Shown in pieces: positions 1,283 through 25,364 of a stretch of DNA of 31,731 nt. Both the position numbers and the translations under genes were made by a program. The notes under the pieces were generated by a model, which made no database searches, had not been told where the DNA came from, and worked only from the letters and a program-made list of their open reading frames with translations. The DNA is from a virus: positions 1-31,731 of IMG/VR virus record IMGVR_UViG_3300025896_000118, one strand, 5' to 3'. Each line of letters opens with the position of its first letter. Position 1 is the first letter of the stretch.

Positions 1283-2424
1283 GGTAGCGCCTCCTCAATC
1301 TGTTGCGCGGTTTCCTTGCTCTCTGTCGCGCCCCGCAACACTTCTTTGATAGTCGCATCTAGAGCCTTACCTTTCGCTCCCGTGGCATCGCGTAAAAGCG
1401 TCTTGAGAGCGTCCTTGGTCACGGAGCAAGCTCCCGTGAAAACCTCAGCCTTAACGCCAAGCTCTTCGCACTTGGACCATACCTTGCCAACGTCGGTGAT
1501 CTTCTCGCGGATCTGGCCGGGCTTCATTCGGAAGCCTGGAATCTCGCTTTCCTCCACCCGCTTCCGCATCGCGCCCTCAATCGCTGCCGTATACCAGCCA
1601 ACCAACTTCAGACCGCGATACAGCGCCGCAAGCCTCTGCGGTGTCATCTCCATTGCCCGAGCAAACAGCGCGGCCCGTGCGGTGGCGTCGTCGGCAGGCA
1701 GGGTTAGGGCCATGTTTTCAACAGGCTCAAGCGCAACGCTGCGGAGAGCAGGGCAGACCGCTTTTGCCTTGCAGTAGTGGCACCAAGCGCCGGGGTTGAG
1801 GTCGTTAGGTGTCGCAAGCTTAACCCGCTCCAAAACGTCGAGCAGCCAAAAGCGAGACTGGTCGATTGCTTGCCTGTCATAATCCGCAACGCTCGCGGGG
1901 CCAGCCCAAGGTTGGACGATAGCCACACGCACCGAGTCCAAGCGCCAGACCCATGCGGCCATGACAGCCAAGCCGCGAAGCTGCAGGTTTTCTTCTGCGC
2001 TCGCAACTTCACCGCGCCCAGTCTTGTAGTCGAGAACGAGACCACGCTTGCCGTCGATCACGATCAGGTCAGCTTGGCCCGTAAAAACGAGATCCGCTCT
2101 GGTGTCGTCGGTCACAATAACCACGCCGCCGATGCGAGTTAAGCCAAGGCGGATCTCATTGTGCGGAGTGCCGGTCATGTTAGGGCTCCAATCAGCGATG
2201 ACATTCCACGCCTGATCATCGCACATTTCCGCTGTGTGCTCCTCGTCGGCAGATAATCCTGCCATGCTTTTAGTCTCCAGCGCCTTGTGGATGCGCGTTC
2301 CAGACTCTGCAACGTCACTGGATTCGTCAGGCATGTCTTTGCTTGCCAGCCAGCTTCCAGGGCAGTTGTGCAGCCGCTCAAGTGATGATGCGGAAGGGAG
2401 TCCGCGTCTAGGGTCGTTAGTCAT
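1279..2424 (-). CDS. PD-(D/E)XK nuclease, RecB/Cas4-like recombination exonuclease
   Basis: A 381-residue nuclease of the PD-(D/E)XK superfamily (DUF2800/Cas4-like phage exonucleases). The catalytic core is visible as FTGQADLIVIDG followed by LVLDYKTGRG, giving the D...D-x-K pattern, then the 'NLQLRGLAVMAAW' helix. A cysteine early in the protein (NCPGSW) and the later CHYC...CP group form a Cys4 set like the iron-sulfur clasp of Cas4/AddB nucleases. The start at 2424 is preferred over 2478 because AGGAGGTG stands just before it and it overlaps the upstream stop by ATGA. It would resect double-stranded ends to feed the RecT-type annealing protein encoded just upstream, as lambda Exo does for Beta. 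Confidence 0.86.
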   Translation of the reverse strand: MTNDPRRGLPSASSLERLHNCPGSWLASKDMPDESSDVAESGTRIHKALETKSMAGLSADEEHTAEMCDDQAWNVIADWSPNMTGTPHNEIRLGLTRIGGVVIVTDDTRADLVFTGQADLIVIDGKRGLVLDYKTGRGEVASAEENLQLRGLAVMAAWVWRLDSVRVAIVQPWAGPASVADYDRQAIDQSRFWLLDVLERVKLATPNDLNPGAWCHYCKAKAVCPALRSVALEPVENMALTLPADDATARAALFARAMEMTPQRLAALYRGLKLVGWYTAAIEGAMRKRVEESEIPGFRMKPGQIREKITDVGKVWSKCEELGVKAEVFTGACSVTKDALKTLLRDATGAKGKALDATIKEVLRGATESKETAQQIEEALP

Positions 2425-2696
2425 GGCAGCACCTCCTTTGCTCTGGCAATCAAAATAGAAGCTGCATGAAGGCCGCAATCACACGCACCATTGATATAGT
2501 GAATCAACGAGCAATCGTAAGCGTGCCCATTGTTAATGAGTCGCTGCAAAGCATCCCTCAATTCCCGCGCAAGTTCCCGCGCCTCGTCTCGCTCGCGTTC
2601 TAATTCGCTTGAAAACGAAGCAAGTGTCAATGCGTTTGCCTGATTAGTCTCTACCCAAGAGGCAGCATTTGTGTCCGGTGTTGGTCGGTCACTCAT
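2421..2696 (-). CDS. Hypothetical protein with coiled coil and Cys pair
   Basis: A 91-residue protein of unknown function. Residues about 27-52 are strongly helical and charged (LERERDEARELARELRDAL), typical of a coiled coil. They are followed by a short segment with Cys and His residues (AYDCSLIHY, ACDCGLHAA) that might bind a metal. GGAGGTG lies just upstream of the start, and the start overlaps the previous stop by ATGA (2693-2696). It sits between the RecT-type gene and its nuclease, so an accessory role in recombination is possible, but nothing in the sequence shows it. Confidence 0.8.
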   Translation of the reverse strand: MSDRPTPDTNAASWVETNQANALTLASFSSELERERDEARELARELRDALQRLINNGHAYDCSLIHYINGACDCGLHAASILIARAKEVLP

Positions 2697-2995
2697 TTTA
2701 CACCTCCCTTCACCTTTTGGATTGCCATCTGCACCGCCGCTTTGTTCGGCAAATTGTCGATGCTAGGTGGATGCTCCTGCTGGAATTTGCCAGCCACCGC
2801 ACCGATACCGAAGTCAGCGCGACCATGTTTGCAATAAACGGCGAACCGGCGTTGAAGCAGCTTCTTGTCTGCGGCGGTTAAGTCGTTGAAGTGCGGCACT
2901 TCGCGGTCAAGTAGTTCGCGCACGGCTTTAAGGTTGAGTTTGATGGCAAGTCCGAAGCCAGTGCCTGCGTCTCGATGGTAAATTGTGTCAGTCAC
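2693..2995 (-). CDS. Hypothetical protein downstream of recT-like gene
   Basis: A 100-residue soluble protein beginning MTDTIYHRDAGTGFG with a GTG start. The start is supported by GGGAGGTG five bases upstream and by a GTGA overlap with the stop of the RecT-type gene (2992-2995). The middle is helical and basic (LTAADKKLLQRRFAVYCKHG); the C-terminus is another helix (KAAVQMAIQKVKGGVK). No known domain was recognised. The strong ribosome binding site suggests it is made in quantity together with the annealing protein. Confidence 0.82.
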   Translation of the reverse strand: MTDTIYHRDAGTGFGLAIKLNLKAVRELLDREVPHFNDLTAADKKLLQRRFAVYCKHGRADFGIGAVAGKFQQEHPPSIDNLPNKAAVQMAIQKVKGGVK

Positions 2996-3906
2996 TGGGC
3001 ACCTCCCTTCTTAATGCCTGCCACAATCGCTCCCCACGCGCTCACGATGTCAGCCAGCGCGTCGGGCGCTTGCTCTTCCATCGGCGCTTCAAGGTCCACA
3101 AAAAAGCCGCCAGCAGCCGCCTCTTGCCCGACTTGCTCCCAGGTCAGGCCAGACTCATTTAGGCGAGCGGTCAGGATCTCCAAATGAGTCGGCGCGTCGG
3201 CGGTCAGCGTCAGCGCTTCGGGTTCCTTCGTCGGAAAAAGCGGCACCTTCGCGGGAGTGACTTCGCGCTCTGGAGCGGTATCAATCGCCTCCTCTGCGGT
3301 CATCATACCCAACGTGATGTCGGGCGCGTAGAGCCTAGCAAAGAAAGCCGCAGCACGGTAGCGAATCATCAATTCACGCATGTCGGTTTGCCACTTGCTG
3401 CCAGCCTTCCCAACCCAGCCCTCAGAGATTGCCATGTCATAAGACACTGGCGGGCCTTCGATCACATTGCCGCTCGCCTTGTCCTTCGTGTAAGCAACGC
3501 AGGTCGTCGGCGTGTAGGTGTATTTAATCTCCCTGGACACCTTCTTTTGGTTCTCCCAAACTTCGAACGTGACAGCTTTGGTTGTCTCCTTGCCCGTCTC
3601 AGTCATGCGGAATTGCAGTGGCTCGAAGCGACCACTGGCGTTAACCATCGCAATCAGGAAAGTGGCGCGGAAGCTTGGTCGTCCGTGGATGATGTCGATG
3701 TTTTGCAACACCATGAACGGGTCAGCGCCAAGGCGTTTGGCGATGTTGATGCCAATGGCACAGTTGGCCATGTTAGCTTGGAACTCTTTCGGGACGAGCG
3801 TCGATGTCGAAAACATCTTGGCTTGGCGTTGCAGCATTTCGAAGGCGGCGTTCTCTCGCTGGATTTTGATGTCGGTGATTTCGGGTGTGGATAGTTCGGT
3901 TGTCAT
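2992..3906 (-). CDS. RecT-family single-strand DNA annealing protein
   Basis: A 304-residue protein resembling the RecT/RedB recombinases. The N-terminal half has typical family patterns, 'ANCAIGINIAKRLGADPF' and 'IIHGRPSFRATFLIAMVN', followed by beta strands and the 'WQTDMRELMIRYRAAAFF' helix. The C-terminus is acidic and variable. It would anneal complementary strands exposed by the nearby PD-(D/E)XK nuclease and by SSB-coated DNA. The start has no Shine-Dalgarno site; AAACAAACGCAAC precedes the ATG. Annotation as RecT family rests on motif resemblance, not on an alignment. Confidence 0.85.
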   Translation of the reverse strand: MTTELSTPEITDIKIQRENAAFEMLQRQAKMFSTSTLVPKEFQANMANCAIGINIAKRLGADPFMVLQNIDIIHGRPSFRATFLIAMVNASGRFEPLQFRMTETGKETTKAVTFEVWENQKKVSREIKYTYTPTTCVAYTKDKASGNVIEGPPVSYDMAISEGWVGKAGSKWQTDMRELMIRYRAAAFFARLYAPDITLGMMTAEEAIDTAPEREVTPAKVPLFPTKEPEALTLTADAPTHLEILTARLNESGLTWEQVGQEAAAGGFFVDLEAPMEEQAPDALADIVSAWGAIVAGIKKGGAQ

Positions 3907-3932
3907 GTTGCGTTTGTTTTAGGGTTAGTGTT

Positions 3933-4706
3933 TTATTTCCAAGATGCAGCTCTTAAAATTTTCAGTTCTCGACCTTGATTATTAGCCATGCACGCAGCGA
4001 CAATGTATGGATATTGAACCGTCCCCTTTTGAGTCGATGACGATAAAAAATTACGCAATGCTTGAGCTGGCTGGCAATCTGTAGTGAGCTTAAAAAGCTC
4101 AGCATACATTTCACAAGCCTCTTCTCCGTATCTGTGATGATAATCAACAAAAGCCAATCCAACGACCGCCGTGCCGATTATTCTTGCTGGCTTGTGAATT
4201 TCAGAAATAGCTATGTAAGAATTAGCCATTTTATGAAAAATTTCCAAAGCCTCTTCTGGGCTTGCTTTGGCCTTATTTGTCATTTGCCTTTTCATCGATA
4301 CTAACGCAGCAATAAACTTATTTTGGTTGAGGTTTTCCACAAACGATACTCGATCACCCAAAGTTCTGCTGATTCCAGTGTCCATATACCTGATCACGTC
4401 TGGACTCACGCCAAGCCTGACCGACGCCCAAACTGACTGGTTAGCAATTGCTATTCCGGCCATGCGATGCTGCCCGTCGATTAGCCTTCCATCGCTAGAA
4501 AAGCAAATTGGCTGCGGGTGATTTTCAATCCATTCCCCATTCTTGATTTGTTGAGCGATATATTTTGCTCCCGCCTGCCTTCTAAATCGGTTTCCTTCGT
4601 TGTGCTCGGATAATACTCTCTCGGCATCCAAGGGTGTAATTTTGACCACCGCTTGAGATGGAATGCTCCAGTCGAGTGCGAATATGCTTTTTGATTCTCT
4701 TTTCAT
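3933..4706 (-). CDS. ParB/sulfiredoxin-fold (DGQHR-type) protein
   Basis: A 257-residue protein with the ParB/Srx N-terminal fold as found in DGQHR-type phage proteins: 'QQIKNGEWIENHPQPI' leads into SSDGRLIDGQHRMAGI, with the DGQHR motif at about 77-81, then an ASVRLGVS strand and YMDTGISRTLGDR. The second half is helical and unrecognised. Family members include nucleotide-binding ParB-like proteins and nucleases, so a DNA-related role is possible. The start at 4706 was chosen over an in-frame ATG at 4778 because the extra 24 residues look like leader sequence and GAACGAT lies shortly upstream. The gene looks clearly richer in A+T than its neighbours, which suggests separate acquisition. Confidence 0.72.
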   Translation of the reverse strand: MKRESKSIFALDWSIPSQAVVKITPLDAERVLSEHNEGNRFRRQAGAKYIAQQIKNGEWIENHPQPICFSSDGRLIDGQHRMAGIAIANQSVWASVRLGVSPDVIRYMDTGISRTLGDRVSFVENLNQNKFIAALVSMKRQMTNKAKASPEEALEIFHKMANSYIAISEIHKPARIIGTAVVGLAFVDYHHRYGEEACEMYAELFKLTTDCQPAQALRNFLSSSTQKGTVQYPYIVAACMANNQGRELKILRAASWK

Positions 4707-4793
4707 ATGTTTATCGTTCTTGTTTTGTCTTAGGTTTGCCGTCTTTCCGGCCGTCAACTGAGATTGAGCCCTTAACACTGGACTCGAAAGGGT

Positions 4794-4931
4794 TTAGAGA
4801 GGGTCAAGGTAAGTGCCGTAGATGCGCCCATTCTCGCGCACAGCGAGCTTGTAGCGGCGTTGAATGTCACGACGGCGGCGGATGGATGCGATGGCCCAAT
4901 ATGGCAGGAGGGAGTAGATGAGGGATTTCAT
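4794..4931 (-). CDS. 45-residue basic protein with hydrophobic N-terminus
   Basis: A short reading frame encoding a peptide that starts MKSLIYSLLPYWAIASI, a hydrophobic segment. A strongly basic stretch (RRRRDIQRRYK) follows, then a short tail. It could be a membrane-anchored basic peptide. It lies between the 66-residue gene upstream (gap 15 bases) and the ParB-fold gene. No Shine-Dalgarno site is present and there is no overlap with a neighbour, so support is weaker than for the other small genes here. Confidence 0.5.
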   Translation of the reverse strand: MKSLIYSLLPYWAIASIRRRRDIQRRYKLAVRENGRIYGTYLDPL

Positions 4932-4946
4932 TGGTGTTGTTTTGGT

Positions 4947-5147
4947 TTATGCCCGTTGATCGAGGCAAATTGTAGCGATAGGTCCGCCGTGCGTGATGCG
5001 GTAGCCTTGTTGCACTTCGGAGACTTCCAGCACTGCGGAGTCACCGGCATTCGGGACTCGGACCCAGGCGACGACATCGGAGTCAAGGCCGTTGGGCAGG
5101 TTGTCACTAAGCTCGACAAGTTGGCGGATGAGTGCGTCGATGCTCAT
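4947..5147 (-). CDS. Hypothetical 66-residue protein
   Basis: Starts MSIDALIRQLVELSDNLPNG, an N-terminal helix followed by predicted beta strands (VVAWVRVPNAG, AVLEVSEVQQGYRI). The start is well supported: AAGGAGG lies upstream and the ATG overlaps the preceding stop by ATGA (5144-5147). No family was recognised. Part of the small-gene run that opens the early leftward cluster. Confidence 0.74.
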   Translation of the reverse strand: MSIDALIRQLVELSDNLPNGLDSDVVAWVRVPNAGDSAVLEVSEVQQGYRITHGGPIATICLDQRA

Positions 5148-5467
5148 AGGTTCGCCTCCTTTTCGATTTCAATCACCGCCTCGAGGCGCCAAGCGTTAAG
5201 CTTGCCAAGAATCTCATCCGCCTTGGATTTAATACCTTCAAGCGTTAGGACGGCAGCGTGAGCTTGACCCGCTGCCACCACCAAATCTTGAGCTGGATAA
5301 ACCATGTTGTTCGTTGTTTCAATGGCGCGTCGGATAAAGCGAATAGACTCGCCCAGCTTCTCTGCCAAGGGCAGGCATTCATATCGCGCTTCAAGAAGCA
5401 AGTCGTTGGATAGGTAATTCAGATCGTTCATTTTGAATTTAGGATTGTGTGTATTGCGCCAAGTCAT
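5144..5467 (-). CDS. Hypothetical helical protein (107 aa)
   Basis: An all-helical 107-residue protein of unknown function, with ARYECLPLAEKLGESIRFI and 'QAHAAVLTLEGIKSKADE' segments that look like two or three long helices. The start at 5467 is preferred because it overlaps the stop of the 57-residue gene by ATGA (5464-5467); an internal start at MNDLNYL, 12 codons later, is the alternative. Its 3' end overlaps the next gene by ATGA. It may be a small regulatory or structural factor of the early operon. Confidence 0.74.
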   Translation of the reverse strand: MTWRNTHNPKFKMNDLNYLSNDLLLEARYECLPLAEKLGESIRFIRRAIETTNNMVYPAQDLVVAAGQAHAAVLTLEGIKSKADEILGKLNAWRLEAVIEIEKEANL

Positions 5468-5637
5468 GCCCTAAACGTCGCGGCCCTCCATGCCTTGTAG
5501 TCGGATTTGGCCCAGGATGCGACGAGCGCGACGTGGTCAGTTCTGCGTTGACCGTGAAAGCCAGCCCAGAAGCAGGCGCGATCAAGCCATGTGGTCCAGC
5601 GAATAAGCAGGGTTGAAGCGGAGGTAAGCGGCATCAT
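5464..5637 (-). CDS. 57-residue Trp-rich hypothetical protein
   Basis: A small gene starting MMPLTSASTLLIRWTTW and containing five tryptophans (one each in IRWTTW, TTWLDR, CFWAGF, ASWAKS and KAWRAA). The C-terminal half (VALVASWAKSDYKAWR) is amphipathic and helical. The stop overlaps the downstream start by ATGA (5464-5467). The start is preceded by GAACGATT directly against the ATG, a motif also seen at two other starts in this window. Function unknown. The overlap and shared start motif are the evidence for expression. Confidence 0.62.
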   Translation of the reverse strand: MMPLTSASTLLIRWTTWLDRACFWAGFHGQRRTDHVALVASWAKSDYKAWRAATFRA

Positions 5638-5686
5638 AATCGTTCGATCTGTATTTGGTATTATCGGTGTTGGATGTAGTTATGGA

Positions 5687-5845
5687 TTATGGCTTCTTGC
5701 GGTTAAGCGACTTTTCCAAGACGCGCTCGACGAAGTCCTGGAGCTTGTAACCATTGCGGCAAGCGTGGATCTTGAGCCGCCTGTGAAGGTCGGCGGTGAC
5801 TTTGAGCGAGGCGGTTGGAAGTGGAGCTGGAGGAGTGGTAGTCAT
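5687..5845 (-). CDS. Ribbon-helix-helix (Arc/MetJ-type) DNA-binding protein
   Basis: A 52-residue protein whose core reads as a ribbon-helix-helix domain: the strand SLKVTADLHRRLKIHA (13-28), a turn at CRNGYK, and the second helix LQDFVERVLEKSLNR. Such proteins dimerise and bind DNA operators through the paired strands. It starts nine bases after the stop of the 86-residue gene. It is the most plausible transcriptional regulator in the window and lies 270 bases from a palindrome in the control region upstream of the same cluster, so autoregulation there is a reasonable inference. A C-terminal antitoxin domain is absent, and no toxin gene is adjacent. Confidence 0.78.
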   Translation of the reverse strand: MTTTPPAPLPTASLKVTADLHRRLKIHACRNGYKLQDFVERVLEKSLNRKKP

Positions 5846-5854
5846 GGCGGTAAA

Positions 5855-6115
5855 TTATCCGAGATTCTCAAGACCAGCGCCCGCTTCCACCAATTCATCA
5901 CAAAGCTCAATCATCGCGGCGTTGCCGGGAGTTGCGATTTTGCAGCCGATGTATTCGACGTCATTGCAGAATTGCTCATAGTTTGCGGATGTGATAGGGC
6001 CGTTTTCGCTGACCCATGATTGCATCTCCTCGGTGTCTACAGGGTAGCAGACTTGGCCATCGTTGATGACGGTGATTTGAGCGGCGGCGGCGAGGATTTC
6101 GGTTTTGGTATTCAT
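5855..6115 (-). CDS. Hypothetical 86-residue acidic protein, first gene of early cluster
   Basis: First gene downstream of the control region at 6.12-6.20 kb. The protein begins MNTKTEILAAAAQITVI and is acidic, mixed alpha/beta, with VCYPVDTEEMQSW and 'NYEQFCNDVEYIGCKIA' in the middle. No known family was recognised. No Shine-Dalgarno site; GAACGAT abuts the ATG. Its position as the first gene suggests early expression, a place where phages often carry host-takeover or anti-defence proteins, but that is position-based inference only. Confidence 0.72.
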   Translation of the reverse strand: MNTKTEILAAAAQITVINDGQVCYPVDTEEMQSWVSENGPITSANYEQFCNDVEYIGCKIATPGNAAMIELCDELVEAGAGLENLG

Positions 6116-6120
6116 ATCGT

Positions 6121-6153
6121 TCGTGTGGTTAACGAGATGATTAAATCACACGA
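6121..6153. promoter_or_regulatory. Palindromic operator candidate
   Basis: A perfect 7-bp inverted repeat, TCGTGTG (6121-6127) and CACACGA (6147-6153), extended imperfectly by GTTAA and TTAAAT inside each arm. It lies 6-38 bases upstream of the first gene of the early cluster and downstream of a promoter candidate, the position expected for a repressor site. The ribbon-helix-helix protein encoded at 5687-5845 is the obvious candidate ligand. Binding is inferred from symmetry only. Confidence 0.45.
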
Positions 6154-6173
6154 TTCGACCCCTGTCTAGCAAA

Positions 6174-6202
6174 ATTCTACTTTTCTACAAAATTCCACTC
6201 CA
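6174..6202 (-). promoter_or_regulatory. Weak sigma70-like promoter candidate for the early cluster, with direct repeats
   Basis: On the minus strand, TGGAGT (6202-6197) is separated by 17 bases from TAGAAT (6179-6174), a 3/6 and a 5/6 match to the -35 and -10 consensus. The region also holds two near-identical direct repeats (plus strand TCTACAAAATTC at 6184-6195 and TCTAGCAAAATTC at 6165-6177), about one and three-quarter helical turns apart. The repeats could be activator or repressor half-sites, or may simply reflect the A/T-rich promoter. Confidence 0.35.
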
Positions 6203-6208
6203 GCCCTG

Positions 6209-6283
6209 ATAAACAAAGGGCGTCACCAGCAAGCCACCACAGGGAAACAACAACGAAAACCCTTTAAACTTGCCAGTGACGCC
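6209..6283 (-). terminator. Long hairpin with U-rich tail after the endolysin gene
   Basis: Starting five bases after the endolysin stop, the minus-strand transcript can form a 15-bp stem: GGCGTCACTGGCAAG (6283-6269) with CTTGCTGGTGACGCC (6233-6219), all paired with two G-U wobbles. It is followed by CTTTGTTTAT. The 35-base loop is longer than usual and may contain a small inner GGG/CCC stem. It would end the late transcript and insulate the early cluster. A processing site or operator is also possible because of the long loop. Confidence 0.55.
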
Positions 6284-6287
6284 ACAT

Positions 6288-6860
6288 TTATCGCGTGGCC
6301 TGAAAGTGCATCGCATCCCTCGACCAGAATGCCCCGGCAGGAAGCCAGCCTTCACGGGCGAAGCATTCCATCACCTCAAGCGGCATGTTGGCTCTTGTGG
6401 GCCAATGAGTGTTGAGCCCGTTCGTCCCCGGCGCAAGGTCGATGGCTGCACCGTAGGCGTGCAGGCTCCAGCGAGTCCCGCCGCGCATTGGACGATGATT
6501 GTAGATGCCTGCATACTCACCGAGCACCCAAGCGCATTCACGGGTGGAGATGTCCACCAGCACCTTGTAAAGCGAGTCAGCGCATTTGCGGTGCACGTTG
6601 ACGGATTTAACTGGCGAACTGCTGTATTTGAGACCGAGCCCGGTCACATCCAGCTTGATGATTTGCCTGATCACTTCGCCTTTGGCTGGGTCACCGTAAT
6701 GCTTAGCCAAGGCTTGCGGCGTCGATGCTGGGAACGCGCTGGGCGATGGCATGAGCGAGCGCAAATACGACTGGCAGGCCGCTGTTGACTTAGGCCCCCA
6801 GAATCCGTCTGGAGTCGTGCCGATGCGCTCTTGAATCTCCTGGATTTGTTGGCGGGTCAT
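6288..6860 (-). CDS. Endolysin, M15-family peptidase (L-Ala-D-Glu / VanY type)
   Basis: A 190-residue peptidoglycan hydrolase. The N-terminus (QIQEIQERIGTTPDGFWGPK, about 4-23) looks like a short peptidoglycan-binding repeat. The C-terminal two-thirds carry the M15 zinc site: SLHAYGAAID (132-141) gives the conserved S-x-H-x-x-G-x-A-x-D with H134 and D141, and H185 in DAMHFQ supplies the third ligand. The start overlaps the stop of the lipoprotein gene by ATGA (6857-6860). There is no signal peptide, so release should depend on the holin candidate upstream. It is the last gene of the late transcript. Confidence 0.93.
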   Translation of the reverse strand: MTRQQIQEIQERIGTTPDGFWGPKSTAACQSYLRSLMPSPSAFPASTPQALAKHYGDPAKGEVIRQIIKLDVTGLGLKYSSSPVKSVNVHRKCADSLYKVLVDISTRECAWVLGEYAGIYNHRPMRGGTRWSLHAYGAAIDLAPGTNGLNTHWPTRANMPLEVMECFAREGWLPAGAFWSRDAMHFQATR

Positions 6861-7021
6861 GGCTTTGCGTTCCTTTCTGATTTGCGCTTTTGCTGCTTAT
6901 TCCGCCACCCGGCATATCCTGATGCTGGCTTGCCTCCAAACTGCCGAAAGCCCTCCACAACATCGAGCGCCACACAGCTCGGAAGGGCGGTGATGAGGGC
7001 GGCAAGTAAAAGGCGTTTCAT
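6857..7021 (-). CDS. Small lipoprotein, outer-membrane spanin (Rz1-like) candidate
   Basis: A 54-residue protein with an N-terminal signal peptide (MKRLLLAALITALPSC) ending in a lipobox-like L-P-S-C with Cys16 as the lipidation site. The mature part is short and very basic towards the end (WRNKQQKRKSERNAK). Size, lipobox and position in the lysis cassette, overlapping the endolysin start by ATGA, fit an o-spanin, which would join inner and outer membranes at the end of lysis. It lacks the proline-rich body of lambda Rz1, so the spanin assignment is an inference; lipoprotein status is much firmer. Confidence 0.72.
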   Translation of the reverse strand: MKRLLLAALITALPSCVALDVVEGFRQFGGKPASGYAGWRNKQQKRKSERNAKP

Positions 7022-7036
7022 AAATGGCGGGTCATA

Positions 7037-7285
7037 TCAAAAATGAATGGTAATCTTTGCCTGTGGCCCGAGAGCGCGAAGGATGCTTGCAACGTCCTTG
7101 TTTTCCGCGACCAGTTCAAACGCGCCGACATCAGGCCGAAAGGTAATCTCGGCGGTTGCGCTGCCGTGCTGCGTCAGCCTTGATTTAGCGTCTTCGTGAG
7201 CTGCGAATACGTGCGGCGCGATACTCGACACGTCGGGCTCTGAGAAGGCTAGTGCAAGCGGCGAAGTCGGGAAGGGATAGTTCAT
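7037..7285 (-). CDS. Hypothetical lysis-cassette protein (82 aa)
   Basis: A soluble 82-residue protein starting MNYPFPTSPLALAF and ending in a beta-rich segment (AEITFRPDVGAFELVAENKD, then KITIHF). The start at 7285 overlaps the stop of the upstream 46-residue gene by ATGA (7282-7285); a longer in-frame start at 7534 runs back through that gene and is rejected. No family recognised. Placement between membrane proteins and the lipoprotein suggests a lysis or late accessory role. Confidence 0.7.
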   Translation of the reverse strand: MNYPFPTSPLALAFSEPDVSSIAPHVFAAHEDAKSRLTQHGSATAEITFRPDVGAFELVAENKDVASILRALGPQAKITIHF

Positions 7286-7422
7286 GGTGGTGATTTGGTC
7301 ACAGTCCAGCACATCCAGCCAATAGCAAGCCACAACGCCGCAGCCAAGATCAGCACAAGGGCGACAGCGAGCCTTTCCTTGATGCGTTCGATCTTGTGGC
7401 GGCGATGGGCTTTGCTGGTCAT
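7282..7422 (-). CDS. 46-residue single-span membrane protein
   Basis: A small protein with a basic N-terminus (MTSKAHRRHKIERIKERL) followed by one long hydrophobic helix (residues about 19-40, 'LAVALVLILAAALWLAIGW') and a short C-terminal tail. The positive-inside rule puts the N-terminus in the cytoplasm. It overlaps the holin candidate upstream (ATGA 7419-7422) and the 82-residue gene downstream (7282-7285). It could be a pinholin-like or antiholin peptide, or a membrane-anchored spanin part. Confidence 0.66.
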   Translation of the reverse strand: MTSKAHRRHKIERIKERLAVALVLILAAALWLAIGWMCWTVTKSPP

Positions 7423-8422: not shown

Positions 8423-11218
8423 TTAAGTTCCGTATGCTATTTCAACGCCTTCGACGACTGCCACCCAGCGCCAAGTCTCTGAGGTAATACCCGTTACTGC
8501 AATTTGCAGTGCATCATTGGTGTCGTCTGCTGTGATGGCGATGCTAGTTCCTGCGGCTTCGTCGGTGCCGATTGTGTTGACGGTGCCGACTAATGATGTT
8601 GTTCCAGCGACATTTTTAATTGTGACTTGGCGCATGTAACTAGCCACTGCTGTTCCATCACTTTTACTGCCGAGCAGTGTTACCTGGAGGTGTAAGATTC
8701 GACCGCTTGGGACGGTTAAGCGCGTGGATGAGCCGTCCAAAAATAATGTAACAGCGCTGTTAGTGGTGGTTTTGTTTCTGACCACAAATTTCACCGCCTG
8801 AGCATCACCATTTGCCGCAAACTGCCCAGCGGCATGTGCCCACATTCCAAGTCTATTTGCGCCCGATCTGAGGCCCGTAGCCATGGCATTTGCTGCGGAT
8901 GAATTTGCCTCTTCGCCTATTGCGACGGATGCCGTGGCGCTGGCGGTGTTGCTGATGCCTATAGCGACCGACCTGGAACCTGTTGCGTTATTTGTCCTAC
9001 CAAGAGCGACCGAAGTTAGTCCAGAGGCTGTGTTTGAGAATCCAACGGCAAATGCGCCGTTGGCAGTCGCGTTATTGGAGTCGCCCAATGCGACTGATCC
9101 AGTTGCGGTAGAAGTATTAGTTGTCCCAATACCAGCCGCTGAAATACCTGATACCGTGTTGCTTATTCCTGCGGCAAAGGCGTTTTCGCCAGAAGCGACT
9201 CTGGTGTTGAGTCCGTGCGTGAGTTGCAAATCAACCGCCCTGACCCCAATGATATTGCCGCCTGTGCCTGTGCTATCGGGCGGCGCGCCGAGCATAAAGC
9301 CGCCCGTGCCTTTTGGCGTCAGCACAAGGTTAACATTGGTCGTTCCGCCTGTGACCGCGAGCTGCTCTGCGTTGACCGTGTTGTTCGGTGATGCCGTGTG
9401 TAACGTTTCGGTGATGTTTGTCAGTCCACCACTCCCACCCGCCGCCCACTTCACGCCACTTGCTGTCGCTGAATCCACCGTCAGCACATGCCCGTTCGTC
9501 GCGCCAACAGCCACACGGATGTTGTCGCTACCGTTGTGGACGATCAGATCGCCCTTGGTCGTGGTTGGTGCGAGGGCGTCGAAGGCTGCGGTCTGCGTTG
9601 TTTGGCCTGTGCCGCCGTTGGCAATGGCGATTGGCGTTGATAGGTAGCCGAGTTGGACGACGCTACCAGCCACACTTGCGACGTTTAGCAGTTGGCCTGC
9701 GGTGCCTGCGGCTGTTGGCGTGACGAGGGTGTAGTCACCACCTGTCGCGCCGCTGTCGATGGTGGTTCTGCTGCCTACTTGTCCAAGCTCAATGAAGCCC
9801 TGGAGAGTGTTAATAGTGCCGCCGCCTTCTTTTGTGATGATGTCGCCACCATTAAGCCCATTTGATCCGTCTGCCGCATTACTGCCGCTGGTTTCAATAT
9901 TCCCAGCATTCCCGCCGGTATAATCTCCGCCAGGGTCGCCGCTAGTAAACCCATCGCCGCCAATGGTGTAAATGTTACCACCTAAACCACCAGATCCGGT
10001 TCCAGGGCTTTGTGGCGTTAAGCCAGCATCACCGCCATAGGTCAATAGATCCCCAGCGCGTGCCGTAAAAGCTCCATAGTCAGCGCCAGACTGCATTCCA
10101 ATCTTCGCCCTTGTCGCGGACGTGCCTTCGATTGGCATCTCCAGGTAAGGATCTACCCATCGAATATCAGCGCCACCGAACGAGCCCGAGTTGTTGAATT
10201 GCAGTTCAGTGTTAGCGCCGCCTGGAGTTCCGCCGCCACCGCTGCCATTTGCAGCCGCCGTAACACGCCCTTTTGCGTCAACGGTGATGTTTGCGCTGGT
10301 GTAGCTGCCGGGAGTGACTGCGGTGTTGGCGAGCGTCAATGCACCAGTATTTGCCAGCGTAGCATCACCTGAGACGCTCTTGTTCTCAAAAACTGTCCCT
10401 GCGGCGTTGGCGACAAGCACTTGGCCGCTTGTGAGGCTAGTGATGGTGACGCCCTCGTCGTCCTTGATGTTACTGCCCAGCAATGGGCGGATAAACAATG
10501 TGCCGTTAGTGGCGTGAGCAGAGACAACAGCAGCAACAATAACGTGTGGGTTTGGGGCTGCTGGCTGCGTGTCTGTCAGGCTACCTGTGGCGGTGCCGAG
10601 GTAAATGATTTCACCGTTAGTCCATACTTGGCCGTAGTTTACACCATTTGTCTGAATGCCTTTGATCTTTCCGAATGCGATAACAAAGCCTTCTTCGCCA
10701 TTTGAAAGCTCTTCAGCTGTGAGGCCCATGAAATACACGCTAGGTCCAGTTCCATTCCAAGGTGCAATGTTCAGCTTTCCGCTGCTGCCAACAGTGCCAG
10801 CAAACATGACAGGCACGCCTTTTGCGATGGTGCTGCCAGTGTCGTTTTTAACGTGATAAACAGTATGCTCACCAACGTGCAGCGTGAAGCTGTTAAGCTG
10901 AATATCGACTGTTTCTTCGTCTGCATTCCAGCCAAGTTGACCCTGCACCGACACAGCACTAGCAGGCGTAGTATCAAGCTGGATGATGTTGACGCCAGAT
11001 AAGTTGGTCGCTGAAAGTGTATCTGTAGTCTTGTTGTAGGTCAGCCCTGCGTCACCGCCGAAGCTGCTACTGTCGTTGAACTGCACCTGCGTATTCGTGC
11101 CCCCAGGCGTGCCACCACCGCCACTCCCAGGCGGTCCCTGCGGCCCCGGCGCGGTAATAATAACGCGATTCCCGGTCTGGATCGCAACGCTGTTTCCTGT
11201 CTGGACGGTCACACTCAT
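8423..11218 (-). CDS. Long tail fibre / receptor-binding protein (931 aa)
   Basis: The largest protein in the window and the probable host-range determinant. The N-terminus holds a short collagen-like piece (PGPQGPPG, about 29-36). Two copies of a GGTPGG-x-NT-x-x-QFN-x-S-x-SFGG unit (about 37-56 and 335-353) may be junction elements. The middle carries 'IANGGTGQTTQTAAFDAL' and TKGDLIVHNGSDN, segments seen in many phage fibres. Residues about 675-795 are repeats of the YadA/Hia head type. The last 125 residues form a beta-rich C-terminal domain. The start overlaps the upstream gene by ATGA (11215-11218). No autocatalytic chaperone motif was seen at the C-terminus. Confidence 0.9.
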   Translation of the reverse strand: MSVTVQTGNSVAIQTGNRVIITAPGPQGPPGSGGGGTPGGTNTQVQFNDSSSFGGDAGLTYNKTTDTLSATNLSGVNIIQLDTTPASAVSVQGQLGWNADEETVDIQLNSFTLHVGEHTVYHVKNDTGSTIAKGVPVMFAGTVGSSGKLNIAPWNGTGPSVYFMGLTAEELSNGEEGFVIAFGKIKGIQTNGVNYGQVWTNGEIIYLGTATGSLTDTQPAAPNPHVIVAAVVSAHATNGTLFIRPLLGSNIKDDEGVTITSLTSGQVLVANAAGTVFENKSVSGDATLANTGALTLANTAVTPGSYTSANITVDAKGRVTAAANGSGGGGTPGGANTELQFNNSGSFGGADIRWVDPYLEMPIEGTSATRAKIGMQSGADYGAFTARAGDLLTYGGDAGLTPQSPGTGSGGLGGNIYTIGGDGFTSGDPGGDYTGGNAGNIETSGSNAADGSNGLNGGDIITKEGGGTINTLQGFIELGQVGSRTTIDSGATGGDYTLVTPTAAGTAGQLLNVASVAGSVVQLGYLSTPIAIANGGTGQTTQTAAFDALAPTTTKGDLIVHNGSDNIRVAVGATNGHVLTVDSATASGVKWAAGGSGGLTNITETLHTASPNNTVNAEQLAVTGGTTNVNLVLTPKGTGGFMLGAPPDSTGTGGNIIGVRAVDLQLTHGLNTRVASGENAFAAGISNTVSGISAAGIGTTNTSTATGSVALGDSNNATANGAFAVGFSNTASGLTSVALGRTNNATGSRSVAIGISNTASATASVAIGEEANSSAANAMATGLRSGANRLGMWAHAAGQFAANGDAQAVKFVVRNKTTTNSAVTLFLDGSSTRLTVPSGRILHLQVTLLGSKSDGTAVASYMRQVTIKNVAGTTSLVGTVNTIGTDEAAGTSIAITADDTNDALQIAVTGITSETWRWVAVVEGVEIAYGT
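8840..9200 (-). repeat. YadA/Hia head-like repeats inside the fibre gene
   Basis: About eight imperfect 14-residue repeats of the form x-G-x-x-N-x-A-S/T-G-x-x-S-V-A, for example 'ATGSVALGDSNNATANG' and ASGLTSVALGRTNNAT. In trimeric autotransporter adhesins such repeats fold into a left-handed parallel beta-roll trimer. The coding is degenerate at DNA level, so this is a protein repeat rather than a fresh DNA duplication. Boundaries are approximate. Confidence 0.75.
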
Positions 11219-20418: not shown

Positions 20419-20976
20419 CTAAAGCTCCGGTGCCGCCGTCTCCCGTGCGTCATGCGTGTAACGGTGCAGCACCTGATCAATGTGCAGCCCTGTCCTCACC
20501 CTCCGCCGTGCCTGTTCAGCCCACACGCGATCTTCGCCGTAGCTGATGTCGGGAAATAGACAGTCAGCCACCAACTCGCGCTTCCAGGCGCAGACGTGCC
20601 ACGGAGCGCGCAAGGTTTGCCCGCCCTCCACGAACGGCCCGTCTTGGTTGTTTAGATGAAACACGACCTCAGAGCGCCGCCCGTTGTAGATCGCGTCTTG
20701 CTTGAACGTGATCACGTCAGGCGCGTGCTTGATGGCGGCGAGAATGAGCGGGATGGTATCGGGAAAGATTTCGTCGTCGTCGTCGCAGAACATGACGTAA
20801 TCGCCAATGGCGGCGTCCATGCACGCTTGCCGCTTGAGTCCGACAGAGCGGGTCATGTTGTCGAGAACAACAACGTGCTCAGCCTGCGGATGGGGCGCGA
20901 TAAGATCCGCGAGAGCGCGGGTTTTGTCGATGCGTCGCCAGATGGCGGGAGTTAGGATGGAGAGTTTTGGAGTCAT
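20419..20976 (-). CDS. GT-A fold glycosyltransferase (family 2-like)
   Basis: A 185-residue glycosyltransferase. The N-terminus KLSILTPAIWRR and the helix SVGLKRQACMDAAIGDY lead into VMFCDDDDEIFP, whose aspartates (65-68) form the metal and nucleotide-sugar binding DxD-type site; GED (147-149) is in the position of the general base. At 185 residues it is a minimal catalytic domain without a membrane span. It is the last gene of the modification block and lies 16 bases upstream of the connector gene. Substrate is unknown: virion protein, host glycan or modified DNA are all possible. Confidence 0.88.
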   Translation of the reverse strand: MTPKLSILTPAIWRRIDKTRALADLIAPHPQAEHVVVLDNMTRSVGLKRQACMDAAIGDYVMFCDDDDEIFPDTIPLILAAIKHAPDVITFKQDAIYNGRRSEVVFHLNNQDGPFVEGGQTLRAPWHVCAWKRELVADCLFPDISYGEDRVWAEQARRRVRTGLHIDQVLHRYTHDARETAAPEL

Positions 20977-20987
20977 GGTAGTTGCGT

Positions 20988-21794
20988 CTAAATCTCGGGA
21001 GATTGTGATATTGCGTTGTTCAGCAGAGAGGAATCGACGCGCAGGATGCAGCGGAGGATTTCGGCGGCGACTTGTGGCACGATGGCGTTTCCGGTGCCTC
21101 TAGCTCGGTCCACCCAATGGGGTATCCCATGTGCCACTCCAACCATTGAGGGTTGATCGGCTTCCCATTCAGCCACTCGAAGCCAGGCCTCATCGGCAGT
21201 TCCTCCAAGTTCTGATAAGAGCGTTTCCGCGTCCACCATTTGCGGTTCTTGTAGATGCTGGCGCGAGTCGTGGGCAATAATCCACACCCTGTCTCGTCTG
21301 TGCCAGTTCCCCACGGCACAAGCTGGAAGCACAACCGGCGGCGCACAGGTGTATCCAAGGCTTGCCAAGTCATCAAGCACCTGGTCGAGACCCAGCGTGA
21401 TGTGGCCAATAACATTTTCACACAGCAGCCAGCGGGGTCTTGCCTCGGCAGTAATTCGGCGAACTTCCGGCCAGAGGTGGCGGTCATCGTCCTCGCCTTT
21501 TCGCTTCCCGGATAGACTGAAAGGCTGGCAAGGGTATCCGCCGGTAATAATGTCGATTGTTCCATATTTTGAAGGGTCTAGTGTTTTCACGTCCTCATGT
21601 ATCGGGACGCTTGGGAAGTTCTTGTTGAGGACGCGCCGCGCCCATGGGTCGATCTCGCAGAATGCTACCGTTTCGATTCCGCCAACCATCTTTGCGGCCA
21701 GCGCGAATCCGCCGATCCCACTGAATAAATCAAGATGCTGAACAAGGCGTGGGAGGCAACGCCGAGGAGCTTGGTTGGCGAGTTCGAGCGTCAT
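20988..21794 (-). CDS. DNA cytosine-C5 methyltransferase
   Basis: A 268-residue C5-cytosine methyltransferase with all core motifs: DLFSGIGGFA (22-31, SAM binding), GYPCQPFS (86-93, catalytic C89), ENV (126-128), RRDRVWIIA (166-174) and GTGNAIVPQVA (233-243). The target-recognition region between motif VIII and the RARGTGN motif is only about 55-60 residues, shorter than in M.HhaI (327 residues overall). The start at 21794 overlaps the upstream stop by ATGA (21791-21794). No restriction enzyme is adjacent, so it is an orphan, probably protecting phage DNA from host restriction. Recognition sequence unknown. Confidence 0.94.
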   Translation of the reverse strand: MTLELANQAPRRCLPRLVQHLDLFSGIGGFALAAKMVGGIETVAFCEIDPWARRVLNKNFPSVPIHEDVKTLDPSKYGTIDIITGGYPCQPFSLSGKRKGEDDDRHLWPEVRRITAEARPRWLLCENVIGHITLGLDQVLDDLASLGYTCAPPVVLPACAVGNWHRRDRVWIIAHDSRQHLQEPQMVDAETLLSELGGTADEAWLRVAEWEADQPSMVGVAHGIPHWVDRARGTGNAIVPQVAAEILRCILRVDSSLLNNAISQSPEI

Positions 21795-24019
21795 TGGCGG
21801 CGTGCCTCCACTTGTGCGTTCTTCTTCACCCAGCACCGCCCGACCACGTGATATTCCCAGCCCATCTCAGCCAGCGCCCGTTGCACTCCTTCGGCGTCGA
21901 TGTCGTGACCGGCGATGATGCCGCCTTCTTTGACCTTTGGCCCCCAGGCTTTCAGGTCGGCGAGAACTGAATCGTAATCGTGAGCGGCGTCGACGAATAC
22001 GCCTGCGAGGGATAAGTCATCGAAGCCAGTTGCCGCCATGACCGAAGGGATCGCTACGGTAATGATGTTGCCGCATTTCGCCGCTTGCGCGTTGGCGTCA
22101 AACTGCTTCAACACATCAAGAATTCCCGTGTCAGCATCGCCCTTGAATGTATCGACGGCGTAGAGCTTGACCGCTTTCTCCTGATCCTGCAATCTCTGTG
22201 CAAGATGGACAATGCTCTGACCCTTCCACGCGCCGACTTCGACAAACGTGTCACCGTCTTGCAGCTTGCGCGCAATCGCCGTGTAGAGATCGCGGAAATC
22301 ACACCAGCCTTCGACATCCCATGATGTAATCGCGCCGCTTTGCAGACGCTGCAAATGCCGAGCGCCCTCAACGTAGTTTGATGGCATGTTCGACCTTGCG
22401 TAAGTCTCATCGACTTGAGCCTTTCCAAACGCTGGGTGCAGATGCTCAAACACCAAATCCCGCGCATCAATCACCACGCCATCCCGGTGGGCGCATTCGC
22501 TGAACCAGTTGTCCGAATACATGCTAAAGAAGTCAGGGTGGAACAAGTAACCCTGGTCAAGGTATCGGGCGCGGGTCAAGATAGCCATGCACATCAAGTC
22601 ATCTTCGCGGTGACCGTCTGAGATTTGGAGAACTGCAGGTTTCGACGTGTCGCCAATCCGATCAAGAATGATCTTGTCCCAGTGCATCGGCGGCTCCCAG
22701 TCGTCCGAGAGCTGAATCAGGATCTCGCCGTGTGATGCTTCAGCAGCGTAGTTCCAGGCGCGCACCGGTCCACCATCACCCTGAACAATGCGGTGCCGCC
22801 ATAGGGTCAGGTATTGGATGCTTTCGGCGTCGTCGGCGTCGATGGCAAAGATGTGTTCGATGGCGTCTGGACTTGCGGCTTTTTCTAACCACTTGCGGCG
22901 AGCGGCTGCGGCTTGCTGGACTCTGCCACGGGTCGCGTGAAGCAAGCTGATCTTCGCACCGTTGCGTTTAAAGAAGTTCAGTTCGTGCGTGTCGGCGCCG
23001 GCGAAGTCTAGGTTTGCCCGTAGCGCCATCGCGTGCGCTTCTACACCCTCACGCCCCCATAGCGAGCGGCGAGCATTCCACGGCCATTCATACGGCTTTG
23101 GTTGCGAGCGCAGGCACCGAGCCCAAGCAATCATCTCTTGCGGCTTTTGACGGGCGAATGCGCCCTTGCACAGTTCAGCGTAAGCTTCGCGGCGGGATGG
23201 GTCGATGGCGACTGCCTGAAGGTAAAGCTGAGAACGCATTGGCTCTTGCGCGCCCTTGGCGAGGAAGCAGTAGATTTGATACTTCTCAACGGGCGGCACT
23301 TCGGGATCTTGAACAAGCGCGGCCCCTTCGTTCATTGCTTCGTGATGCCGCCCCACAAGGTCGAGCGTCTGCATGTAGTGGAAGCGCTGGGAGACCGTGC
23401 GCTCTGCTTCGGGAATGCTCTCCAGAATCCGCATGTTGCGCTCGTTGTTTGGGGCGCGGTGAGAGATCGGAGCGTGGACGATCTTCACGTTGTTGAGCGT
23501 GCCAATGTTGGCGTCTTGAACGGTCGGCATCAGGCATTCGTGGATAGGTGATTGCCACTTCCACGCATCCTTTCTGACGATGCGCTCACGCATGACGGTC
23601 ACGCAATCTTCTGGCACTTCGTAGGGAAACTGAATGCCTGTGAAATCGTCCTCTAAGCCGTCCAGAGCGCGGCGAATGATCGGGATGTAGCGCGGGTCAA
23701 GAATGTCGTCGGTGTCGGCCCACATGACCCATTCGTTAGAGGCGAGGTCGAAAGCCATTTGGCGAGCAGCGGCGAAGTTGTCAACGTGGGGCCAATCACT
23801 TCCTTCTGCGTTTTGGTATTGTTCCAGCGCGTAAGGCTTTTCGCTTCCCGTTAAAAATCTAAGGGCAATAGTTCGACTTGCGTCACAGTGCTGATTCCCG
23901 ATGGCTTGAACCATTACAATCTCATCCACCAGCGGAGCAAATGAGCGAAGAAACCGCTCCATGATGTTTTCGACGTTGCCGTAAATGACAGCGAGGGTAA
24001 GCTTTCTTTTGTGGTTCAT
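21791..24019 (-). CDS. Glycosyltransferase-glycosyltransferase-methyltransferase fusion (742 aa)
   Basis: A three-part enzyme. Residues 5-165 are a family-2-like glycosyltransferase (LTLAVIYGNVEN; WADTDD with the acidic DTDD at 102-105; WQSPIHECL). Residues about 195-320 are helical and TPR-like. Residues about 355-530 look like a second glycosyltransferase domain (ISLLHATRGR; ILIQLSDDWEPP, 433-444; later FEHLHP). Residues about 575-735 form a class I SAM-dependent methyltransferase of the Methyltransf_24 kind (FVEVGAWKGQS, 592-602; VFVDAAHDYDSV, 674-685; GGIIAGHD). The start at 24019 overlaps the upstream stop by ATGA. It could build and methylate a glycan. Acceptor unknown; the domain order is clear, the second GT domain less certain than the first. 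Confidence 0.88.
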   Translation of the reverse strand: MNHKRKLTLAVIYGNVENIMERFLRSFAPLVDEIVMVQAIGNQHCDASRTIALRFLTGSEKPYALEQYQNAEGSDWPHVDNFAAARQMAFDLASNEWVMWADTDDILDPRYIPIIRRALDGLEDDFTGIQFPYEVPEDCVTVMRERIVRKDAWKWQSPIHECLMPTVQDANIGTLNNVKIVHAPISHRAPNNERNMRILESIPEAERTVSQRFHYMQTLDLVGRHHEAMNEGAALVQDPEVPPVEKYQIYCFLAKGAQEPMRSQLYLQAVAIDPSRREAYAELCKGAFARQKPQEMIAWARCLRSQPKPYEWPWNARRSLWGREGVEAHAMALRANLDFAGADTHELNFFKRNGAKISLLHATRGRVQQAAAARRKWLEKAASPDAIEHIFAIDADDAESIQYLTLWRHRIVQGDGGPVRAWNYAAEASHGEILIQLSDDWEPPMHWDKIILDRIGDTSKPAVLQISDGHREDDLMCMAILTRARYLDQGYLFHPDFFSMYSDNWFSECAHRDGVVIDARDLVFEHLHPAFGKAQVDETYARSNMPSNYVEGARHLQRLQSGAITSWDVEGWCDFRDLYTAIARKLQDGDTFVEVGAWKGQSIVHLAQRLQDQEKAVKLYAVDTFKGDADTGILDVLKQFDANAQAAKCGNIITVAIPSVMAATGFDDLSLAGVFVDAAHDYDSVLADLKAWGPKVKEGGIIAGHDIDAEGVQRALAEMGWEYHVVGRCWVKKNAQVEARRQ

Positions 24020-24390
24020 ACTGGTAATTCTGATTTGAAATTTCTGATTCCTTGAACTAGACCGGCCCCTGCTTTTACAGCCGCAAAACAATGATCCTTG
24101 TCGTAAAACCACCAAGCTGCCATGCAGATTGATTTAACTTTGTCTTGGGAGAATCCTGTCTCTCTGACCATAGCCACCATCGGCTCCCCGGCTTTGATTC
24201 TGAGCAAAAAAGACAGACCCATTTCGAGCCTTGCCTTTTGGTCGGCTTGCTTTTTTTGCTGTCGCTTTTCACGCTTAACAGACAACAAAGATGCTTCAAT
24301 GGGTCGCAATTCACGCCTCAGCGTTTTTACTTCAGCCATCAATTTCTTTATCTTCGCCCGCAAAGCTTGCGCTTTTTTGAAATCGTTCAT
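24016..24390 (-). CDS. Small helical protein opening the modification block (124 aa)
   Basis: A 124-residue basic protein starting MNDFKKAQALRAKIKKLMAE, with a long coiled-coil N-terminal half and a helix-turn-helix-like segment (GEPMVAMVRETGFSQDKVKS, about 69-88). It resembles the 118-residue protein at 18430-18786 in its opening residues and general plan. It is the first gene after the capsid terminator and overlaps the fusion enzyme by ATGA (24016-24019). It could be a regulator or DNA-binding partner of the block. No family recognised. Confidence 0.7.
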   Translation of the reverse strand: MNDFKKAQALRAKIKKLMAEVKTLRRELRPIEASLLSVKREKRQQKKQADQKARLEMGLSFLLRIKAGEPMVAMVRETGFSQDKVKSICMAAWWFYDKDHCFAAVKAGAGLVQGIRNFKSELPV

Positions 24391-24426
24391 CGGGAGTTCT
24401 TAACACTTCACGCTAAATCGCGCAAC

Positions 24427-24458
24427 AAAAAAGCGCGGCCCCCTTTCGGAGACCGCGC
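24427..24458 (-). terminator. Intrinsic terminator after the major capsid gene
   Basis: The minus-strand transcript forms an 11-bp stem, GCGCGGTCTCC (24458-24448) with GGGGGCCGCGC (24443-24433), two G-U pairs, closed by a GAAA tetraloop and followed at once by six U (24432-24427). It starts 15 bases after the capsid stop. Strength looks high. The following block and all tail genes must be reached by read-through, antitermination or a separate promoter. Confidence 0.9.
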
Positions 24459-24473
24459 CGCTTCGGGAGACGG

Positions 24474-25364
24474 TTAAGGCACCGTGAACAGTTTGAGTTC
24501 GTTGGTGACGGCGGTGGCGTAGCCGTAGAGACAGTGCAGGTTGGCAAAATATTTGCCTTGTGCGCGGCTCCAGTGGCGGGTGTAGAGAGCGGAGATACCA
24601 CTTTCTGCGTCCACGTATTGCTCAACGGCTTCGTAGTCTTCGGTGGGGAGGTAATCACCAAGCTGACGCATGGCGACCGCGATGGCGTTCTTGCCGCAAG
24701 CGAAGCCGGCGAGCGAAACGCTGTTGAGCGGGATGACATCTGAGGAGTAGATGTCCATGCCGAGCAAGCGACCAAGCAAGCCTTCCTTGATGGCGAGTGA
24801 GTCGCCACGGTTGAGCGCCAAGGTGATCTTGTCATCGCCCAGCATCGCAGCCTCGATGTCCATGTTAGCAACAAAAGACTTGTCGCCACGGACGCCGGCG
24901 GAAAGCAGAGCTTTGCGAGCGGCGATGAGTTGAGCGCGGCCATAGTTAGCGGCAGCGGTGGTGATGATCGCGGAGCCGAAGTTCGACGTGGTGATCAAGC
25001 TCCAGATGTCAGTGAGGACAGCCTGAGCCATGGAGCGGCCAAGCTGATCAGCGAACTGATCGAATCGGCCTGCGTTGCTGGATTCCGCCAACTGTTGCAG
25101 CGTGAGATCCATCGGTGTGATCTTGCGCTTGTTAAGGTTGACGGTGATTGCGGTGATGAGGCCGCCGGTCTGCTCATACACGTCGCTGGCTTGAGTGAAG
25201 GTGGTGGTCGTCACGTTGCCGAAGAGCGGCACGATGACGGCATCACCTTGACCGCGCACCTCGGAGGAGATGTCGGTAGCAAATGCGTTGAGCGGAGTCA
25301 GGATCTCGGTCAGTTGCTGGAAAGCACGTTGACCGAACAGCTTGTCGTTAAAGAGAGTAGCCAT
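24474..25364 (-). CDS. Major capsid protein (HK97-like fold)
   Basis: A 296-residue protein beginning MATLFNDKLFGQRAFQQLTE. The alternation of helices and strands (AQLIAARKALLSAGVRGDKS; ITLALNRGDSLAIKEGLLGR; DIYSSDVIPLN) and its place directly after the prohead protease identify it as the capsid subunit. It is compact, without a separate delta domain, because the scaffold-like part is on the protease. Ten bases separate it from the protease gene; no Shine-Dalgarno site is visible at this start, which is odd for the most abundant virion protein. Confidence 0.88.
   Translation of the reverse strand: MATLFNDKLFGQRAFQQLTEILTPLNAFATDISSEVRGQGDAVIVPLFGNVTTTTFTQASDVYEQTGGLITAITVNLNKRKITPMDLTLQQLAESSNAGRFDQFADQLGRSMAQAVLTDIWSLITTSNFGSAIITTAAANYGRAQLIAARKALLSAGVRGDKSFVANMDIEAAMLGDDKITLALNRGDSLAIKEGLLGRLLGMDIYSSDVIPLNSVSLAGFACGKNAIAVAMRQLGDYLPTEDYEAVEQYVDAESGISALYTRHWSRAQGKYFANLHCLYGYATAVTNELKLFTVP

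Follow-up and report, generated by a model that had tools for sequence, protein, structure and literature searches.

The glycosyltransferase (GT) genes carried behind the capsid gene of this phage probably form a cassette dedicated to its capsid protein (MCP). A GT-GT-methyltransferase fusion (GGM) and a small glycosyltransferase (GT3) would together glycosylate MCP in the cytoplasm, often with an O-methyl cap, on a putative acceptor site, with a putative sugar and to a presumed benefit. The DNA analyzed here (the window) corresponds to one entire IMG/VR record, 31,731 bases long, in which no end repeats occur. Since the GTs always lie behind the capsid gene and are inherited with it, they very probably coat the capsid with glycan, and as far as genetic coupling goes, sequence comparison supports the verdict of capsid glycosylation well. 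A first-pass annotation had proposed either glycosylation of virion proteins or an atypical surface glycan for a four-gene block at this site. The former is the best-supported reading, and the strict linkage, the shared inheritance, a natural swap, and homology with protein GTs now narrow it to MCP. The latter found no support.

The four open reading frames of that block are present and intact on the minus strand at the positions first given for them (Table 1). An ORF check also confirmed their ATGA overlaps at 24019-24016 and 21794-21791, and GT3 begins 11 nt past the gene for a C5-cytosine DNA methyltransferase (DCM). Pfam and PHROGs searches bore out the domain calls, with Glycos_transf_2, a second phage GT, and Methyltransf_24 in the fusion, DNA_methylase (6e-42) in DCM, and Glycos_transf_2 in GT3. 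The same searches identified MCP, a ClpP-type protease, a lambda-type portal, and a GpA terminase upstream of the block and an FII-like gene downstream. These flanking identities place the block between capsid and FII. Of its proposed equivalence to lambda D/E/FI/FII, the interval between E (capsid) and FII, roughly at FI, thus stands, but D and E are not replaced.

Table 1. Features of the capsid-glycosyltransferase region (window coordinates)
Feature	Positions	Strand	Basis
MCP, HK97 fold, presumed glycan acceptor	24474..25364	-	phrog_283 4e-18; model; position directly upstream of GGM
MCP E-loop motif T52-T-T54-T55-F56, candidate acceptor site	25197..25211	-	Clade-wide Ser/Thr conservation
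Predicted intrinsic terminator just past MCP, 12-bp stem and T run	24432..24459	-	Terminator prediction
h124, 124 aa, coiled-coil, variable insertion outside core	24016..24390	-	No homologue at locus in relatives
GGM, 742 aa, ATG start; GT-A + TPR + GT-A + Methyltransf_24 fusion	21791..24019	-	Pfam, PHROGs, profiles, model
GGM GT1 domain, SunS/GmaR-like, presumed initiating protein GT	23465..24019	-	Profile and fold matches, invariant motifs
GGM helical TPR region, residues ~190-352	22964..23452	-	Consensus TPR protein matches; all-helical in model
GGM GT2 domain, S438-D-D motif invariant	22385..22957	-	phrog_14945; Comrade gp78 4e-19
GGM methyltransferase domain, probable sugar O-methyltransferase, lacking in some relatives	21815..22327	-	Methyltransf_24 7e-18; Foldseek
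DCM, C5-cytosine DNA methyltransferase, insertion	20988..21794	-	PF00145 6e-42
GT3, 185 aa, small GT-A glycosyltransferase, core member	20419..20976	-	Glycos_transf_2; D65-D68 invariant; Che8 gp108 profile match

To delimit the cassette, IMG/VR was scanned with GGM and MCP, singly and as alignments, and several hundred loci were gathered from records that may be incomplete. The sets comprise the best 80 matches per scan, and more distant exceptions are possible. Among the matches listed, the order MCP-GGM-GT3 occurs in every sufficiently long locus of the MCP clade (127 distinct MCPs), and the deepest GGM scan, reaching ~38% identity, placed MCP immediately upstream in 74 of 74 new loci. The other two genes behave differently. 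DCM has no counterpart between GGM and GT3 in any relative fetched, and C5-methyltransferases occur elsewhere in the genome, unlinked, in 3 of 16 long relatives. The 124-aa gene (h124) has no Pfam match above cutoff and no homologue at the locus in relatives; it weakly resembles a coil-HTH gene that one of them (L004) carries as an insertion behind GGM. Both gaps beside GGM are insertion hot spots whose small genes differ between phages. Because only GGM and GT3 are conserved whereas DCM and h124 are variable, the supposed four-gene unit resolves into a two-gene core and two passengers. Every relative with enough sequence has GGM linked to GT3, but the full four-gene order is confined to the window, and neither DCM nor h124, both first counted as parts of the system, recurs at the locus in any relative fetched. 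Both are best regarded as separate cargo outside the glycosylation system.

In a tree of 179 distinct MCP sequences, the 127 GT-linked MCPs fall into one clade (support 0.98), which also holds two further contigs too short to judge. No loss of the GTs was seen in these 127 MCP lineages among the loci fetched, so they represent a clade-wide trait. The sister clade comprises 50 MCPs of the P8625 type, and none of its 32 members with at least 2.5 kb of downstream sequence carries a GT there. Verrucomicrobia phage P8625 itself resembles the window in its GpA terminase, portal, ClpP protease, and related capsid protein (~26% identity), followed by a head-closure-like gene, but it has no GT behind the capsid gene and thus exemplifies the cassette-less sister state. 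The insertion hot spots flanking GGM might suggest that the GTs, too, are morons hitchhiking neutrally in an insertion-prone gap, with no capsid role. We give this idea almost no credence. The small genes come and go, whereas the GTs are missing from none of the 127 MCP lineages; the catalytic motifs of GT1, GT2, and GT3 are all invariant, and GT2 is more conserved than portal or terminase across 50 genomes.

A function directed at the capsid is further indicated by shared inheritance. Distance correlations were computed for 28 dereplicated phages with 2000 permutations, and a raw version covered 50 genomes. In the dereplicated set, MCP and GT1 distances correlate with a Mantel r of 0.77 (p = 0.0005, the smallest value possible with 2000 shuffles), and controlling for terminase, portal, or protease leaves the correlation at 0.77 to 0.78. 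Physical linkage by itself favors co-transfer of neighboring genes, and the protease, as the other neighbor of MCP, served as a control for mere adjacency. The control pairs reach only 0.20 (MCP-protease), 0.16 (MCP-portal), and 0.10 (MCP-terminase), and all turn negative once GT1 is held constant. The packaging genes of the GT clade are often nearly unrelated to those of the window (terminase mostly 13 to 22% identity, portal 19 to 25%), yet MCP and the GT domains are still recognizable. By these distances, MCP appears as the gene that best tracks the history of GT1 among those compared, the others being terminase, portal, and protease.

Individual genome pairs point the same way. Two relatives, L034 and L159, share 86% DNA identity across terminase, portal, and protease and 81% from early GT3 onward, whereas their MCP, GT1, and GT2 proteins are only 53, 60, and 60% identical. 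The MCP-GGM-GT3 segment of L034 instead matches several phages at roughly 80 to 96%, although their terminases are only 30 to 32% identical. We read this as a natural swap, in which MCP, GGM, and the start of GT3 crossed backbones together and without a tail gene. In another pair, L127 and L159, MCP (96%) and GT1 (77%) match while GT2 and GT3 diverge (62%), a pattern that suggests a match between the capsid and GT1 in particular. The GTs could instead act on one or several other virion proteins, such as the tail tube, connector, or fiber, rather than mainly on the capsid; the cassette sits between head and tail genes, and both capsid and tail tube subunits are reported to be glycosylated in mycobacteriophages (PMC12619734, PMC12363180). 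As the main target, such a protein is nevertheless improbable, given that the swap between L034 and L159 moved no tail gene and that MCP tracks GT1 best within a comparison spanning terminase, portal, protease, and MCP, although it may be an additional acceptor.

The enzymes themselves are consistent with a protein acceptor. In profile comparisons, the closest matches of GT1 among solved structures are GmaR (1.6e-16) and SunS (1e-9), a likeness that may partly reflect which enzymes of the GT2 family have solved structures. SunS and ThuS, both peptide S-glycosyltransferases, are also the top fold matches of the whole GGM AlphaFold model (pLDDT 87). GT1 and the TPR region share with GmaR and SunS/ThuS a soluble architecture, in which a GT2-family GT-A domain with DxD and HE motifs precedes a TPR or helical region; the corresponding residues of GT1, D102-T-D104 and H160-E161, are invariant among relatives. 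GmaR is a flagellin O-GlcNAc transferase whose TPR has been proposed to recognize the protein substrate (PMC9638930). Whereas GmaR and SunS/ThuS act on polypeptides, a polypeptide acceptor for GGM is suggested by its linkage to MCP only, and GGM further differs from them in two ways: its polypeptide also carries a second GT and a methyltransferase, and its gene follows a capsid gene.

The remaining domains would fit later steps of glycan assembly. GT2 resembles gp78 of Streptomyces phage Comrade (4e-19), and GT3, with its D65-D68 motif invariant among relatives, matches in profile comparison the GT half of gp108 of mycobacteriophage Che8 (6e-38). Foldseek matched the methyltransferase domain to the sugar O-methyltransferases MeT1, SpnH, and MycF, from which it differs in being fused to GTs and optional among relatives. 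Of 71 relatives scored, 14 lack it, a distribution that takes at least five changes (five to six) along the tree and fits an optional cap.

Two further acceptors have to be weighed against a virion protein. The GTs might serve DNA hypermodification, either with DCM methylating cytosine, oxidation yielding 5hmC, and the GTs glycosylating the product or with a hydroxymethyl-base pathway feeding them. DNA GTs are well known from phages, a C5-methyltransferase does lie between the GTs in the window, and a TET/JBP search, although without a match, was equally silent in control genomes. This route is very unlikely, however. Conservation of the GTs does not extend to the C5-methyltransferase, GT1 resembles protein GTs, and the GTs are tightly coupled to the capsid gene. 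Moreover, the earlier observation that no hydroxymethylase is encoded holds: the thymidylate-synthase/hydroxymethylase family (PF00303) is absent from 16 long, possibly incomplete relatives in a search whose controls were positive and from the scanned window proteins.

A similarly slim chance attaches to modification of host surface polysaccharide, which would bring about superinfection exclusion or receptor change. Many phage GTs do act on O-antigen, and the GT2-family fold matches include the teichoic-acid GTs TarP and TarS. Against this, GGM and GT3 have neither membrane segments nor other hydrophobic stretches, and the cassette, as first noted, encodes no flippase or membrane GT of the gtrABC type. 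Profile scans of a species-genome collection with GGM and MCP, directed at host origin and prophages, also found no true relative of either. The location behind the capsid gene and the capsid-specific co-inheritance likewise argue for MCP as the substrate rather than a host glycan.

Expression of the cassette probably departs from what its gene overlaps had implied. Simple late co-expression with the capsid is put in question by a strong intrinsic terminator that separates MCP from the block, as it does in 74 of 102 relatives, against approximately one expected; its stem sequences differ among phages. In the sister clade, a terminator follows 8 of 48 capsid genes. With this terminator in between, the GTs are probably made by read-through at levels below that of the capsid, and a lower level suits enzymes.

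Within MCP, the E-loop offers our best guess at the acceptor. The MCP model (pLDDT 76) is poor in this loop; its top Foldseek matches come from phages Douge and Che8 and are likewise capsid proteins. Positions T54 and T55 each hold Ser or Thr in 126 of the 127 GT-linked MCPs, and T55-F56 is kept in the last one, too, while the surrounding loop varies in sequence and length. The Thr motif occurs in only 2 of 32 GT-less MCPs, a signal inseparable from that of 18 MCP columns without Ser/Thr that are equally clade-specific. Glycosylation at the C terminus, as reported for mycobacteriophages, was considered and set aside. MCP C termini differ in length and residues among relatives, and the E-loop is preferred for that reason, with T54/T55 as the predicted site.

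Taken together, these features are compatible with the following scheme, in which the protein and residue modified, the identity of the sugar, the sequence of steps, and the benefit are our inference. In the cytoplasm of the infected cell, GT1, guided by the TPR region, would add a first sugar to newly made MCP, most likely on an E-loop Thr (T54/T55). The GT2 domain and GT3 would extend or branch the glycan, drawing on host nucleotide sugars, and the methyltransferase domain, where present, would cap it by O-methylation. The outcome would be a glycan-coated capsid, with the particle masked or the shell stabilized. In this lineage, the capsid might even require the glycan as a structural component, in the role that a decoration or cement protein would otherwise fill. 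The interval between the protease and capsid genes of the window shows no decoration gene, no MCP lineage of the 127 lacks the GTs, and the presumed acceptor Thr is unvarying, all of which motivate this rather doubtful extension.

To our knowledge, virion glycosylation in tailed phages has so far been known mainly from a few mycobacteriophages. It has been described for Che8, Corndog, and Myrna (Freeman et al. 2023, doi 10.1016/j.chom.2023.05.028, as cited in PMC12363180, PMC11256854, and PMC12619734), and Che8 gp110 is a GT reported as essential for capsid glycosylation (PMC12363180, citing Freeman 2023). Capsid glycosylation by phage enzymes is therefore not the undescribed system for which the first-pass annotation had named this block the best candidate in the window. 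Like the window, the mycobacteriophage systems combine a methyltransferase with soluble GTs encoded by the phage in a single cassette. The resemblance to Che8 extends to its capsid, which is among the fold matches of the window MCP, and to gp108, a GT-methyltransferase fusion adjoining gp110, whose GT half is homologous to GT3, although gp108 itself is not the GT reported as essential. None of GT1, GT2, GT3, or the methyltransferase domain gave a profile match to gp110. In Che8, ~50 kb separate the capsid gene from the GT genes, which are located toward the right end of the genome, whereas the window has a different phage backbone and an initiating GT of the SunS/GmaR type joined in one polypeptide to a TPR region, a second GT, and a methyltransferase. 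Podovirus MW202524 (Manatee Spring) comes closer in layout. Its capsid gene is closely followed by one for a 761-aa protein, whose N terminus matches GT1 (5e-25), and then by more GTs. It belongs to another capsid family by MCP profile and lacks matches to GT2, the methyltransferase domain, and GT3, and it looks like a parallel arrangement.

A limited literature search on capsid glycosylation and phage glycosyltransferases found no description of the MCP-GGM-GT3 cassette. GGM is a compact GT-GT-methyltransferase enzyme with a predicted protein acceptor. The natural capsid-GT swaps, the losses of the O-methyltransferase, and the cassette-less sister clade provide ready comparisons, with which the question of why phages glycosylate their capsids becomes testable. 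Beside the mycobacteriophage systems, what appears to be new here, judging from the genomes compared, is a broad uncultured clade in which capsid-coupled glycosylation is a fixed trait and a different enzyme initiates it.

Small variable genes concentrate in two hot spots in the window and in the fetched loci L002-L047, namely the gaps on either side of GGM, the glycosyltransferase (GT)-TPR-GT-methyltransferase fusion gene that follows the major capsid protein gene (MCP) in relatives. Besides the C5-methyltransferase gene of the window, these gaps, the second of which ends at the small GT gene GT3, hold genes for coil proteins, coil-HTH proteins and a DUF7448-like protein, as well as genes of unassigned families. 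Directly after GT3, the ORF of several relatives has a start resembling that of ATP-dependent DNA ligases.

The putative tail fibre of the window is only partially conserved in L003 and L004 despite terminase identities of 97-98%, a sequence pattern that a fast-varying host range would fit. At the contig end of L006 (1-1063), the terminase region looks inverted and duplicated, with terminase pieces on both strands, which is possibly an assembly artefact.

Features of the window, its relatives, and comparison phages
Feature	Locus	Coordinates	Remarks
Gap MCP-GGM	Window	24016-24473	Corresponding gap compared in L002-L047
Gap GGM-GT3	Window	20977-21794	Corresponding gap compared in L002-L047
Ligase-like ORF downstream of GT3	L016	384-908	EKLDG motif, by eye
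Ligase-like ORF downstream of GT3	L019	111-842	EKLDG motif, by eye
Ligase-like ORF downstream of GT3	L177	390-923	EKLDG motif, by eye
Putative tail fibre, 931 aa	Window	8423-11218	YadA-head repeats
gp108, GT-methyltransferase fusion	Che8 (L184)	3983-5158	Basis, PHROGs
Capsid-GT region	Podovirus MW202524 (L183), Manatee Spring	1656-7307	

The GT3 homologue gp108 of mycobacteriophage Che8 is annotated solely as a glycosyltransferase, to which PHROGs adds the methyltransferase part. Podovirus MW202524 carries a capsid gene, a 165-aa ORF, a 761-aa GT that at its N-terminus matches GT1, the first GT domain of GGM, and two more GT-like genes, an arrangement of capsid and GT genes that looks parallel to that of the window.
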